From assembly GCA_905233795.1 (NCBI GenBank), contig CAJOFP010000005.1, forward strand, positions 5,702 to 16,020: DNA of 10,319 bases. Direction: 5' to 3'. A program made the position numbers and the translations under genes. The DNA is from an uncultured Oscillibacter sp. (lineage in GTDB: Bacteria; Bacillota; Clostridia; Oscillospirales; Oscillospiraceae). The notes under the pieces were generated by a model, which saw nothing but the letters and a program-made list of their open reading frames with translations, was not told the origin of the DNA and searched no databases. Positions 3,679-6,598 of the stretch are shown piece by piece (positions within the stretch are counted from its first letter, which is position 1; the number at the start of each line of letters is the position of its first letter).

Positions 3679-5055
3679 TTACTCGCGGGCAAGCGTCTCA
3701 TTCATGGACGCGGCGAGGGAATCTAAAATAGAATCCATCTGAGAGGGATCAATCCACGCGTTGACCAGTTCTTTCTGATACTGATCCGACCAACGGGTGG
3801 TATATTTAGAATAAGGCCGGAACACGAGCGTTCCCTGATTTTCGATATTAATAAACGCGTCAATATTCATGCCCTCAAACGCGTCGGAGAACTCTTCCGA
3901 AATGCCCATATAACCCGCCATCGTCACGCCTAATTGCGCCTGTTTCACCTGCATATCGTAAGAGCCGAACCATTCGATTAAGCTCCAAGCGGCGTCGGGC
4001 TGTTTGGTATCGGCGGCGGCGGCCCAGCCGAGACCGTTATAAATCGAGCAGCGTTCTTCAGGCTGCGCTACGCCGTCGCCGTTGGCGTCGTGATAGGGCA
4101 GCATGACCCACGCGTAATTCTGACTGCCGTCCTCATTGAAAGCGTCGTCATCGTCATAGAAAGATTTAATCATCCAAGAGCCTTGGGTAATCATAGCGGC
4201 GAGGCCGTTATTAAACATTGTGTCCGTGCCGTTTTCAGAAACGACATTCTGCGGCGCGAATACGTCGGAACATAATTTGCCGACAAATTCCATCGCTTCT
4301 TTCGTGTTGGGATTGTCCCATCCTGAAGTTTTATGATCTTCAGAGATTACATAGCCGCCGTAAGAATAAATAATATTAAACCAGCCGTCCTGATCGTTCG
4401 TCGTGTTCATGGCGACGCCGTAATAAGAACCCGCGCCGGCGTCCGTGATCGCTTTACCGGCGTTATAATAATCATCCCAAGTCCAATCATCCGTGGGATA
4501 TTCCACGCCCGCGGCGTCAAACAGGGCTTTGTTATACAACAGCGCGATAGTATCATGATCTTTCGGCACGGCGAACTGTTTGCCGTCGAGCGAGTATAAT
4601 GTCGTGATACCGTCGTAATAATTCGCCAGATCGATCACATCCGAATTATTAATATAATCCGTCAGATCCAATAATTTATTGGCCTCCATGTACATTTGGG
4701 CCGTGTTGGAGTGCATCCAGAACACGTCGGGCATTTGTCCGCCGGACGCGCCCGCCTCTAAGAGCGTCCAATAGTCATCCCATGTGACGACTTGGATATT
4801 CACGGGAATGCCGGAAACGGCGGTCCATTCCGCCGCGATTTCACGCAGTCCGGCGAGCTGGGTATTATCCCAGATTTTGACTTCCAGCGCGGTCGCCGAT
4901 CCGCCGGTATTGCCGGAATTATCCTCCGTGGCCGCGTCCGTGTTGGCATTGCCGCCGGAATTGGCGTTGTTTCCGCCGCAGGCGGCCAGCGTCAGGATCA
5001 TGACGACGGCCAGAAGCAGTACGGAAAGTTTGCGAAGTTTGCCGTGGTTGTTCAT
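3679..5055 (-). CDS. Lipoprotein sugar-binding protein of the CUT1 ABC importer (MsmE-like, SBP family 1)
   Basis: A 458-residue extracellular solute receptor anchored to the membrane by lipid. The N-terminus has a KLRK n-region, a hydrophobic core and the lipobox LAAC with Cys26, followed by a Gly/Asn/Thr-rich linker to about residue 54. The mature part shows the family 1 pattern: LEVKIWDN start, a DVFWMHSNTAQ segment at 111-119, PKDHDTIALLYNKALFDAAG at 164-183, a WTWDDYYNAGKAI segment, and GLAAMITQGSW near 285-294. Residues 323-334 (DANGDGVAQPEE) match an EF-hand-type calcium loop. Translation start is well supported by AAGGAGG at 5064-5070. First gene of the transport operon. CUT1 family is sure; the ligand is inferred to be an alpha-galactoside from the GH36 and AraC neighbours. 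Confidence 0.94.
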   Translation of the reverse strand: MNNHGKLRKLSVLLLAVVMILTLAACGGNNANSGGNANTDAATEDNSGNTGGSATALEVKIWDNTQLAGLREIAAEWTAVSGIPVNIQVVTWDDYWTLLEAGASGGQMPDVFWMHSNTAQMYMEANKLLDLTDYINNSDVIDLANYYDGITTLYSLDGKQFAVPKDHDTIALLYNKALFDAAGVEYPTDDWTWDDYYNAGKAITDAGAGSYYGVAMNTTNDQDGWFNIIYSYGGYVISEDHKTSGWDNPNTKEAMEFVGKLCSDVFAPQNVVSENGTDTMFNNGLAAMITQGSWMIKSFYDDDDAFNEDGSQNYAWVMLPYHDANGDGVAQPEERCSIYNGLGWAAAADTKQPDAAWSLIEWFGSYDMQVKQAQLGVTMAGYMGISEEFSDAFEGMNIDAFINIENQGTLVFRPYSKYTTRWSDQYQKELVNAWIDPSQMDSILDSLAASMNETLARE

Positions 5056-5063
5056 GCGGAGAC

Positions 5064-5070
5064 CCTCCTT
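5064..5070 (-). promoter_or_regulatory. Strong ribosome binding site of the solute-binding protein gene
   Basis: AAGGAGG on the minus strand, 8 bases before the ATG at 5055. It is the best Shine-Dalgarno match in the transport operon, which fits the need for excess binding protein. Confidence 0.8.
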
Positions 5071-5511
5071 TATTCATCTTTCATTGGGAAAAAATCTTGA
5101 AAAAAATTTTTCTTGCGATACTCGAAAATATCCGGGCGCGGAATCGGGGAAATTTAATAAAACGCCGGACAAATCCGGGGAAACAGGGGTGAAAATTCCC
5201 AATGAATATGAATAAAATATTAACGGATTTTGTGCGAAATTTATATGGATAAATGCGGGATTATAATAGAATCATGTGCGTATTTTTTTATTATTTTTTA
5301 TATCCCGTTTTCCGGCGATTGGATATAATTCCGGAAATTCGTCTGAAAATCCAAAATTTTCGTCCGAAAAATCCGTTAAAATTAACCGAATCCGATTAAA
5401 ATTTAAATTTTATCCGTTTGATTTTCTACCGTCAAAACCGGTTTGGACGCCAACAAAAGCCCATAAAATTCCCGATAGGTTAAGAAAAAATAAAATAAAT
5501 AAAAATAAAAT
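5071..5511. other. Gene-free stretch upstream of the transport operon
   Basis: I see no convincing gene. The stretch holds small perfect inverted repeats (CCGGA at 5165-5169 with TCCGG at 5174-5178, and a self-complementary 14-mer AAAATTTAAATTTT near 5398-5411) and A-rich runs near 5483-5519. Binding sites for the AraC regulator probably lie in the part nearest the transport operon, but I cannot point to one with confidence. Confidence 0.5.
5260..5265 (-). promoter_or_regulatory. Possible -10 element of the transport operon
   Basis: A perfect TATAAT on the minus strand about 200 bases before the binding-protein start. No acceptable -35 is found 16-18 bases upstream, where the sequence is a run of As. 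This is what an AraC-activated promoter often looks like, but TATAAT also arises easily in such A/T-rich DNA. The implied leader is about 200 bases. Confidence 0.3.
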
Positions 5512-5550
5512 AAAAAAAACGCCCCCACGCGGAATGGCAGCCGCGTGGGG
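5512..5550 (-). terminator. Strong intrinsic terminator of the small RNA
   Basis: A perfect 10-bp GC-rich stem (CCCCACGCGG at 5550-5541 on the minus strand with CCGCGTGGGG at 5532-5523) has an 8-base loop and is followed after GCG by eight Ts (5519-5512) and more T-rich sequence. On the plus strand the same stem is followed by ACTTTTTG, so weak bidirectional action is possible. Confidence 0.9.
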
Positions 5551-5646
5551 ACTTTTTGTGAGGGGAAAAAGGAGATTTCATGTCGGGCCCGTATTCCGCG
5601 TTCTGGCATACGCGGTCAGCCCGGAGTTAGCATTAACTAACCACGC
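5512..5646 (-). ncRNA. Candidate free-standing small RNA, about 130 bases, no family recognised
   Basis: This is a transcript unit defined by its promoter (5651-5679) and terminator (5512-5550), with no credible protein gene inside. Predicted start is near G5646 or G5644. Structures visible in order on the minus strand: a small hairpin GTTAG/CTAAC around 5640-5626; a two-part hairpin with outer CGGGC (5623-5619) and GCCCG (5588-5584) and inner CCGCGT (5615-5610) and ACGCGG (5601-5596); a hairpin CTTTTT (5571-5566) with AAAAAG (5557-5552) exposing a CCCCTCAC loop; and the terminator stem. The C-rich loop and the adjoining CTCCTTT could pair with Shine-Dalgarno sites, as in several Gram-positive regulatory RNAs. 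It lacks the SRP RNA GGAAGGAAGCAGCC signature and is too short for tmRNA or RNase P RNA. It could instead be a leader element of the transport operon 450 bases downstream. Confidence 0.68.
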
Positions 5647-5650
5647 GATG

Positions 5651-5679
5651 AATATAGCATATCGCCGCGGGCTTGTCAA
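5651..5679 (-). promoter_or_regulatory. Near-consensus sigma-A promoter of the small RNA
   Basis: Minus strand: TTGACA at 5679-5674, a 17-base spacer (5673-5657), then TATATT at 5656-5651, with TGC just before it giving an extended -10. This is a perfect -35, an optimal spacer and a 5 of 6 -10. It is the strongest promoter I find in the window. Confidence 0.88.
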
Positions 5680-5700
5680 GCGGGAAAATAAAAAATTTTT

Positions 5701-5739
5701 AAATTTTTTTAAAATTTCTCTTAAATTTCTTTTAAATTT
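5701..5739. promoter_or_regulatory. Phased AAATTT tracts upstream of the small RNA promoter
   Basis: AAATTT occurs at 5701, 5712, 5723 and 5734, exactly 11 bases apart, beginning about 22 bases upstream of the -35 of the minus-strand promoter. A further A5T5 tract at 5691-5700 lies even closer. AnTn tracts repeated near the helical period bend DNA, and A/T-rich DNA at this place can act as an UP element for RNA polymerase alpha. The phasing is seen directly; curvature and activation are inference. Confidence 0.6.
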
Positions 5740-5994
5740 CCGATTTTTCCTGTTTTCGCTCTTGCCAAGCCGAAAATAATTTTATATAATCCGTCCAACC
5801 TGAGGCCTGATTTTTACTAAATTTATTATTTTTATATTATTTTTATAAATTTTTATCTTAAATCGTCTGAAATCCCGGAAAAACAGCGTTTAAAAATATA
5901 TTAAAATTTATTTTATTTATTTTAATATATTTATATATTTTTAATATATTTAAATATAGCGCGAAAACCGGGAACCGATTGTATAACAGGCGCG
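5740..5994. repeat. A/T-rich gene-free stretch with a long A/T palindrome
   Basis: No gene is seen. AAATATATTAAAA at 5894-5906 and TTTTAATATATTT at 5920-5932 form a perfect 13-bp inverted repeat, and a third copy of the right arm lies at 5939-5951. The arms contain no G or C. It may be a simple spacer or a site that opens or forms a cruciform easily; there is no T-run placement that would make it a convincing terminator. Confidence 0.6.
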
Positions 5995-6000
5995 TATAAT
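5995..6000 (+). promoter_or_regulatory. Possible -10 element for the phosphoesterase gene
   Basis: TATAAT about 70 bases before the start of the metallophosphoesterase gene. The -35 position (near 5972-5977) is poor, so confidence is low. Confidence 0.3.
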
Positions 6001-6029
6001 AATATTAAAATAAAATCAGGCGGTCAGGA

Positions 6030-6046
6030 GCCGTCCGGCGGACGGC
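6030..6046 (+). promoter_or_regulatory. GC-rich hairpin in the phosphoesterase leader
   Basis: GCCGTCC (6030-6036) pairs perfectly with GGACGGC (6040-6046) around a 3-base loop, just before the purine-rich GGGAGGG ribosome site at about 6052-6058. It lies inside the presumed 5' leader. It may protect the mRNA 5' end; no T-run follows, so it is not a terminator. Confidence 0.5.
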
Positions 6047-6070
6047 GGAAAGGGAGGGAAGCGCAATTAT

Positions 6071-6598
6071 ATGAAAATTTTAATTTTATCCGATTCCCAC
6101 GGGGATGTGGACGCCATGCTGCAGGCGGTCAAAAAGACATCGCCCCAAATGGTCATTCATCTGGGTGACTGCTGGCGGGACGTGGAACCAGTCATGGAAC
6201 GCTTTCCGGAGCTTCCGTTTTACCGCGTCCCCGGCAACTGCGATTTTCGCCCGCAAAATCCTCTCGAACAGATTATCACGCTGGAGGGTCATCGCGTCAT
6301 GATCTGTCACGGCCACACGTTCGGCGTCAAACAGGGAATGCGGGAAGCCGAGGAAATCGCCAAAAGCGAAAAATTAGACGCCTTTTTATTCGGCCATACG
6401 CACCGTCCGTTGGTGGCGAAAAAGGGCCGGACGCTGTTTTTCAATCCGGGCAGCTGCGGTTTGGGGAATCCGTGTACATACGGCGTCCTGAACGCGGAAC
6501 GGGATAAGTTAAACGCGAGGGTTTACACGCTGAAAGAACTGGATTTATCGTCGTATATCAACCCGCGCCCCGGACTGGGTCAAGTATCCCGGATTTAA
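6071..6598 (+). CDS. YfcE/MJ0936-family metallophosphoesterase
   Basis: A 175-residue cytoplasmic, two-metal phosphodiesterase. All calcineurin-like metal ligands are visible: D8 and H10 in LSDSHGD, D33 in HLGDC, N56 in PGNCDF, H80 in CHGH, and H109 and H111 in FGHTHRP, followed by the typical NPGSCG at 125-130. Length matches the family (about 160-185). Proteins of this group cleave bis-pNPP in vitro, but the natural substrate is mostly unknown. The ATG start gives the standard MKILILSDSHGD opening; GGGAGGG lies about 12 bases upstream, slightly far. It is followed 21 bases later by its own terminator, so it is a single-gene transcript and not co-transcribed with the GdpP-like gene. Family sure, biological role unknown. 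Confidence 0.94.
   Translation: MKILILSDSHGDVDAMLQAVKKTSPQMVIHLGDCWRDVEPVMERFPELPFYRVPGNCDFRPQNPLEQIITLEGHRVMICHGHTFGVKQGMREAEEIAKSEKLDAFLFGHTHRPLVAKKGRTLFFNPGSCGLGNPCTYGVLNAERDKLNARVYTLKELDLSSYINPRPGLGQVSRI

Follow-up and report, generated by a model that had tools for sequence, protein, structure and literature searches.

A probable iron-responsive small RNA gene of Oscillibacter that also occurs as the 3' end of mRNAs in its relatives

The stretch of DNA analysed here (the window, 10,319 nucleotides from an uncultured Oscillibacter sp.) carries on its minus strand what is best read as a real, free-standing small RNA (sRNA) gene of non-housekeeping type. We consider it probable, at roughly 0.75, that its product is an iron-starvation-induced sRNA that acts in trans through an anti-Shine-Dalgarno (anti-SD) segment and that exists in two forms, as a separate gene and as the tail of mRNAs. 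The evidence for this explanation is the anatomy of the gene, its conservation, covariation in the terminator stem, an operator-like palindrome associated with iron-transport genes, and synteny. The gene appears not to have been described before in gut bacteria of the Oscillibacter type; no description of an iron-responsive sRNA of Oscillibacter-type gut Clostridia was found in the titles and abstract beginnings of the open-access PMC literature.

The gene has its own promoter and intrinsic terminator, lies between genes and holds no conserved reading frame. In the direction of transcription it comprises a promoter, a palindrome, a hairpin, a largely unpaired segment, AUCUCCUUUUUCCCCUCA, and a terminator with the loop CUGCCAUU. 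By sequence and promoter scan, the promoter (5651..5679, minus strand) is of the sigma-A type, with the -35 box TTGACA at 5679-5674, a 17-nt spacer, the -10 box TATATT at 5656-5651 and an extended TG at 5659-5658, one base ahead, as a first, sequence-only reading had described it. That reading also called it the strongest promoter in the window. It does reach the top score of the window-wide scan (11 of 12) and alone of the two best sites has the extended TG, but it shares this score with a plus-strand site at 5762. Promoter-like sites outnumber those in shuffled sequences across the window (46 vs 21.2, sd 5.4), and the promoter match alone is therefore weak evidence.

The predicted transcript of about 133 nt (5512..5644, minus strand) is placed by fold z-score and homologues, its start being deduced from the -10 box. 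The RNA from 5645 to 5513 folds at -54.1 kcal/mol (z = -4.0), a value equalled in none of 200 shuffles; of the four hairpins proposed earlier, three are firm and the fourth is weak. The internal G+C-rich hairpin (5584..5623), identified from the fold, varies in sequence and length among homologues, as judged by eye. The terminator, found by scan and alignment, was first described as a 10-bp GC stem followed by eight Ts. The eight Ts stand, whereas the stem (5521..5552) has 12 pairs, ten of them G-C, around a loop of eight (5533-5540), and one G precedes the U tract (5512..5519), so that the whole element spans 5552-5512. Among the 19 terminator-like sites of the window, which are no commoner overall than in shuffles (17.0, sd 4.3), its stem has more pairs, and more G-C pairs, than any other.

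The gene-free region of 1 kb noted earlier is present, the gap extending from 5055 to 6071. On its far side, divergent from the sRNA, lies a YfcE-like metallophosphoesterase gene (6071..6598, plus strand), assigned by Pfam PF12850 and synteny. The next gene downstream on the same strand encodes an ABC sugar-type substrate-binding protein (3679..5055, minus strand) and starts 457 nt beyond the sRNA terminator. This protein had no match in 17 other sRNA loci, in which flanks of a few kb were searched, and its gene is probably not part of the sRNA unit. Elsewhere in the window, positions 1735-1815, between an AraC-type regulator gene and an ABC permease gene, are nearly pure A+T with repeated TTATAATATTATAATTTATAAATA-like units.

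The segment AUCUCCUUUUUCCCCUCA (5559..5576, minus strand) is complementary to the Shine-Dalgarno region and, we presume, resembles the 3' end of 16S rRNA. Its mean unpaired probability is 0.73. As judged visually in an alignment of 30 homologues, no other unpaired stretch is as well conserved as this C/U tract, from which a few rows depart (e.g. L048, L058, L059 and L063). Among 12 free-standing copies its mean unpaired probability exceeds the transcript average in 11, by a margin of 0.02 in one; in two copies it does not clearly surpass the average in openness (0.35 vs 0.41 and 0.40 vs 0.38). The T run that follows CTCC is 6, 5, 3 or 2 long in 17, 7, 2 and 1 of the 30 rows, respectively, three rows lacking the motif. 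This variation in length, which is out of frame, makes coding unlikely, in agreement with the earlier statement that no credible protein gene is present.

The sequence-only reading had proposed a search for homologues and for covariation, and both support the gene. A DNA search of 60 related genomes gave only five places at E<1e-4 beyond the window's own genome (G000), three of which (in G026, G030 and G019) share promoter, palindrome, C/U tract and loop with the window. A covariance model (R1) of these four sequences matched in 68 of 86 same-genus genomes at E<=0.1, the weak matches being probably mostly due to chance. From 30 of the stronger matches we built a second model (R2) of the 70-nt core, which gave 49 places in 37 of the 86 genomes at E<=1e-4. 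These 30 match R2 by construction, since it was built from them; they had already been found by R1, and all except R1's own four are independent of that model. In the other 49 genomes, including 18 of the 42 of good quality, R2 had no match at this threshold. The terminator stem shows two-sided changes in 11 of its 12 pairs and 96.4% paired cells, as high a value being reached in none of 500 shuffles; paired cells dropped to 36-58% when the alignment was slid. The alignment (30 matches, 26 distinct rows) was fitted to the structure of the model, which leans it toward pairing.

Records with the core include Oscillibacter valericigenes An411, Oscillibacter sp. PC13, three Candidatus Oscillibacter species and a Dysosmobacter, as well as uncultured Oscillibacter and Oscillospiraceae; in O. 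valericigenes and in PC13 the core occurs as an mRNA 3' UTR. An exact-pattern scan of genome contigs gave 73 loci, and the 20 with a core-model match at E<=1e-6 (21 matches, one locus having two) are all titled Oscillibacter, Dysosmobacter or Oscillospiraceae. The other 53, among them many Pelagibacteraceae and several Lachnospiraceae, were set aside as having no nearby operator, except L106, an Oscillibacter locus cut by a contig end with an operator 29 nt upstream of the pattern match; in L104 the operator lies 3.3 kb from the match. At the family level 44 of 400 genomes matched at E<=1e-3, eight of them belonging to the same genus. Among 17 of the 24 family-level loci, L138-L141 alone carry an operator upstream on the matching strand, and the remainder, which look like ordinary G+C-rich terminators without such an operator, were rejected. 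The mRNA form, complete with operator, DUF3793 and flavodoxin, was seen at four places belonging to two further genera of this family.

The first reading had missed the homologues and the anti-SD stretch, and also a palindrome, GTTAG-N6-CTAAC, at the predicted transcription start (5626..5641). Pattern scans and comparison with relatives mark it as the presumed operator, on which a DtxR-family iron repressor would act. Its sequence in the window is GTTAGTTAATGCTAAC (5641-5626), and it begins 9 nt past the -10 box. In the genus the same palindrome lies upstream of genes for FeoA (PF04023), FeoB (PF02421) and DUF3793 (PF12672) proteins, and upstream of flavodoxin (PF00258) and ABC transporter (PF00664, PF00005) genes. 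Because it is shared with feoA, feoB, flavodoxin and DUF3793 genes, it is most likely, judged from sequence, a DtxR-family operator. Its half-sites presumably resemble DtxR/IdeR boxes, and we take the palindrome to be unlike the Fur consensus. A DtxR-family gene (PF02742) is present in eight of nine genomes searched, including the window's own.

In that genome, which is 77% complete and in 455 contigs, the strict palindrome occurs at 3 sites and the reversed control at 8, hence without genome-wide enrichment. The first of the three sites is at the sRNA, the second lies 23 nt ahead of an ABC transporter gene, and the third falls at the 5' part of a frame for a methyltransferase, the domain of which begins well downstream of the palindrome. 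A copy with one mismatch, GTTAGTCATTTATAAC, detected by eye and missed by looser pattern scans, ends 25 nt before the feoA-feoB fusion gene of the same genome. The feoA and feoB genes appear there to be fused in one frame (L369, from about 1150). As own-genome counts are unenriched, the case for a putative operator is built on position and on relatives. In five other genomes strict sites and reversed controls numbered 3 and 0 (G030), 7 and 1 (G087), 12 and 1 (G013), 7 and 1 (G108), and 7 and 3 (G081). The strict palindrome lies within 1.5 kb upstream in 42 of the 49 core places, against a chance expectation of 0.56% of positions that was derived from 6 strict sites in 1.6 Mb of one relative, G108. 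Of 17 loci studied with wider flanks, 16 had the operator upstream and one the reversed control.

The spacing is nearly fixed. The gap between -10 box and operator is 9 nt in nine, 10 nt in two and 6 nt in one of the 12 free-standing copies (positions were assumed for the G084 copy, which has no -35 match), and 11 of the 12 have TTGACA with a 17-nt spacer. A promoter match stands directly upstream of the operator in 11 of 12 free-standing copies, 25 of 26 mRNA forms and 4 of 4 places with the nearest operator 152-192 nt from the core. Each of the 12 free-standing genes has one palindrome within 1.5 kb upstream, and tandem pairs some 35-60 nt apart were seen at many iron-type promoters (L039, L049 and others).

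The genomic context divides the 49 places into forms. In 12 the operator precedes the core by 20-118 nt, and neither a DUF3793 nor a flavodoxin frame intervenes (free-standing form). In 26 the core comes after a frame for DUF3793, flavodoxin or both, the operator being farther upstream (mRNA-tail form). The window's own locus is free-standing and not a 3' UTR, and G030 has two such copies. The free-standing sRNA gene proposed from the sequence is thus upheld by homologues that share the order promoter, operator, anti-SD segment and terminator, with the refinement that in many relatives the element is an mRNA 3' UTR. In four places the nearest operator is 152-192 nt upstream, again with neither frame between; these (L335 and L321 of G106, L058 and L330) are possibly longer free-standing RNAs, and G106 has four core matches. 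Seven places have no operator: G080:C55 sits 99 nt from a contig end, G032:C69 has an upstream stretch of the full 1.5 kb, and among the remaining five, four are weak (E above 1e-5) and G007:C55 is not.

Within the flanking DNA covered, 13 of the 49 places, the window included, have a divergently oriented yfcE-like gene ahead of the unit; three are free-standing (G000, G026 and G072) and ten are mRNA forms. Seven of the 13 were seen in wider context, and G081:C15, outside the 49, has the same layout. Divergent YfcE-like phosphoesterase genes were also noted to recur beside the iron-regulated unit (L296-L309; window 6071-6598). On the same strand, feoA and/or feoB follow in 14 of the 49 places, and after the 12 free-standing copies feoA/feoB follow in three (G069, G072 and G030:C64), the others having none of the genes queried. 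A search for DUF3793 found none in G072 or in the incomplete G000, and G026 carries DUF3793 elsewhere. The most economical account starts from an ancestral 3' UTR form, with the frames lost or relocated afterwards; the direction of this change is presumed.

The same distribution would fit a cis-acting 3' UTR element that stabilises its own DUF3793/flavodoxin mRNA or autoregulates it by pairing with its ribosome-binding site, the free-standing copies, that of the window among them, being what remained once the reading frames had been lost or moved. On that account one would expect what is seen at the 26 of 49 places that are 3' UTRs of such mRNAs, at the four operator-bearing places outside the genus, all of mRNA form, and in G000, G026 and G072, where the free RNA adjoins yfcE at the position in which relatives have the DUF3793 mRNA. 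Decaying copies, however, should not retain operator, anti-SD segment, terminator and promoter, yet all 12 free-standing copies retain the first three, 11 have the TTGACA promoter and G030 has two copies, which makes the remnant idea unlikely. We regard as slightly less likely still that the repressor is another metal regulator, such as an MntR-like manganese sensor or Fur, and that the RNA answers another signal. DtxR and MntR belong to one family and the own-genome regulator was assigned by Pfam PF02742 alone, but the genes that share the operator, FeoA, FeoB and flavodoxin, are typical of iron and not of manganese control.

From the position of the next minus-strand gene, 457 nt past the terminator, one could imagine that the RNA is an attenuator or riboswitch-like leader, terminated ahead of the sugar-ABC operon. 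This is very improbable, given that downstream genes differ among homologues with no conserved regulated gene directly downstream, that the substrate-binding protein is unmatched at the 17 other loci searched, that a presumed operator and an anti-SD segment are unexpected for a sugar attenuator, and that no riboswitch reaches its Rfam threshold. A chance pairing of unexpressed promoter-like and terminator-like sequences in A+T-rich intergenic DNA would accord with the surplus of promoter-like matches; conservation, stem covariation and the fixed operator spacing contradict it and leave it hardly any credibility.

Known identities were sought in Rfam. The sequence-only reading had seen no known RNA signature, and no family reached its gathering score: the whole window (E up to 1) gave 5 sub-threshold matches, none overlapping the RNA, and positions 5500-5700 (E up to 10) gave 27, all sub-threshold. 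The best of the latter, P6 (E 0.0018; 19 bits vs a threshold of 50), covers the terminator stretch only. RyhB and PrrF were absent among the matches of both searches. A plasmid search with a 186-base query gave no match. A generic terminator was also considered and rejected, GCCAT loops being rare (5 of 192 listed terminator-like matches in 400 kb of a relative); these five are two hairpins, neither with UGCCAU, and the 192 count one hairpin several times.

The preferred reading, an iron-starvation sRNA, would work as follows. With sufficient iron, a putative DtxR-family repressor would sit on GTTAG-N6-CTAAC at the transcription start and block the strong promoter, whereas under iron shortage the RNA would be made. 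Being probably conditional on iron starvation, it should be abundant only under low iron. The single-stranded CUCCUUUUUCCCCUC may then pair in trans with Shine-Dalgarno regions, and translation of selected, probably iron-using, proteins would fall. A trans-acting blocker of ribosome-binding sites is suggested because the conserved, open CUCCUUUUUCCCCUC adjoins a terminator and stands under a fixed iron-type operator. The terminator loop UGCCAU could possibly pair with AUGGCA start regions, which is only an idea. In relatives with the mRNA form, a single transcript would both code for the iron-free substitute and contain the silencing RNA, which would presumably be released from it. We give about even odds to a broader proposal, namely that a portable anti-SD/terminator module of about 70 nt, nearly always under an iron operator, serves as the 3' end of flavodoxin/DUF3793 mRNAs and, after these frames were lost or relocated, as a free sRNA gene beside yfcE, that one transcript makes the substitute and silences the iron users, and that relatives show both states of the conversion.

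Targets were searched by pairing the core, in RNAduplex, with 1371 gene starts, called crudely, from 1.6 Mb (45%) of G108. Strong pairings numbered 5, 8, 27 and 68 at cut-offs of -25, -22, -20 and -18, with no excess over flank-shuffled (means 1.7, 10.2, 29.1 and 70.8) or fully shuffled sRNAs (2.2, 11.7, 30.8 and 74.3); the 5 at -25 fall within the shuffled maxima of 5 and 6. Genes with Fe-S motifs were not favoured in G108 (25 vs 1346 genes, p = 0.29). Among 20 starts (of 24 matches) of a NuoE/HndA-like hydrogenase subunit, AUGAGGGGAGA or a near variant occurs in seven, all of them among the closest matches. Among 30 of 67 matches, a KorD-like ferredoxin subunit pairs with the core at -8.6 to -25.2 kcal/mol, not significantly more strongly where the genome has the RNA than where it lacks it (17 vs 13, p = 0.12). 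These suggestive observations make the two iron-sulfur protein genes, named from a reading of their sequences and not by family search, candidate targets of the sRNA.

The best explanation is that the window RNA may work like two Gram-positive sRNAs, the relation being one of description. FsrA of Bacillus subtilis is described as iron-repressed, Fur-controlled and FbpABC-assisted, with a C-rich motif that binds Shine-Dalgarno sequences (PMC9410917). As described there, it is like the window RNA in its C-rich anti-SD motif and in iron control, here presumed, and differs in Fur control, in contrast to the DtxR-type-looking operator at the transcription start here. IsrR of Staphylococcus, described as a genus-wide, terminator-bearing iron-starvation sRNA, has two Fur boxes and three single-stranded C-rich regions, two in loops and one beside a stem, and the same account reports no orthology to other iron sRNAs (PMC9410917). 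The window RNA differs from it, as so described, in its one long C/U tract adjoining the terminator and in its 3' UTR form; both FsrA and IsrR are set apart from it by their descriptions and not by sequence alignment. With RyhB and PrrF it would share the functional class of iron-sparing repression.

The nearest system in layout, going by its published descriptions, is RsaC of Staphylococcus aureus, a metal-starvation sRNA from the 3' end of the MntR-repressed mntABC mRNA that acts in a metal-sparing response (PMC9438474; PMC12421985). It is given as 584-1116 nt long, manganese-linked and released by RNase III (PMC9438474). RsaC thus parallels the 26 of 49 places at which the core ends a presumably metal-regulated mRNA, and differs from the present RNA in that the core here is about 70 nt, iron-linked and found also as a free-standing gene. 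IdeR is a member of the DtxR family, and mycobacteria belong to a different phylum; we know of no 3' UTR form of the mycobacterial sRNA MrsI. MrsI is predicted to be under IdeR, described as a functional homologue of Fur (PMC9410917). Compared by this description, presumed control of the IdeR/DtxR type is the point of likeness.

If the preferred reading is true, common gut commensals run an iron-sparing response through an RNA of their own that seems distinct from RyhB, PrrF, FsrA and IsrR. Since one locus carries the mRNA-tail form in some close relatives and the separate-gene form in others, the derivation of sRNA genes from 3' UTRs can be put to a direct test here. The uncharacterised DUF3793 family, for which only one paper, on a fungal plant pathogen, was found in the open-access PMC literature covered, gains a context of iron starvation together with flavodoxin. 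DUF3793 and flavodoxin genes were repeatedly seen behind an iron-type operator, often followed by feoA-feoA-feoB (L057:442-1472 and similar loci), and the DUF3793 protein is therefore a candidate iron-starvation protein.
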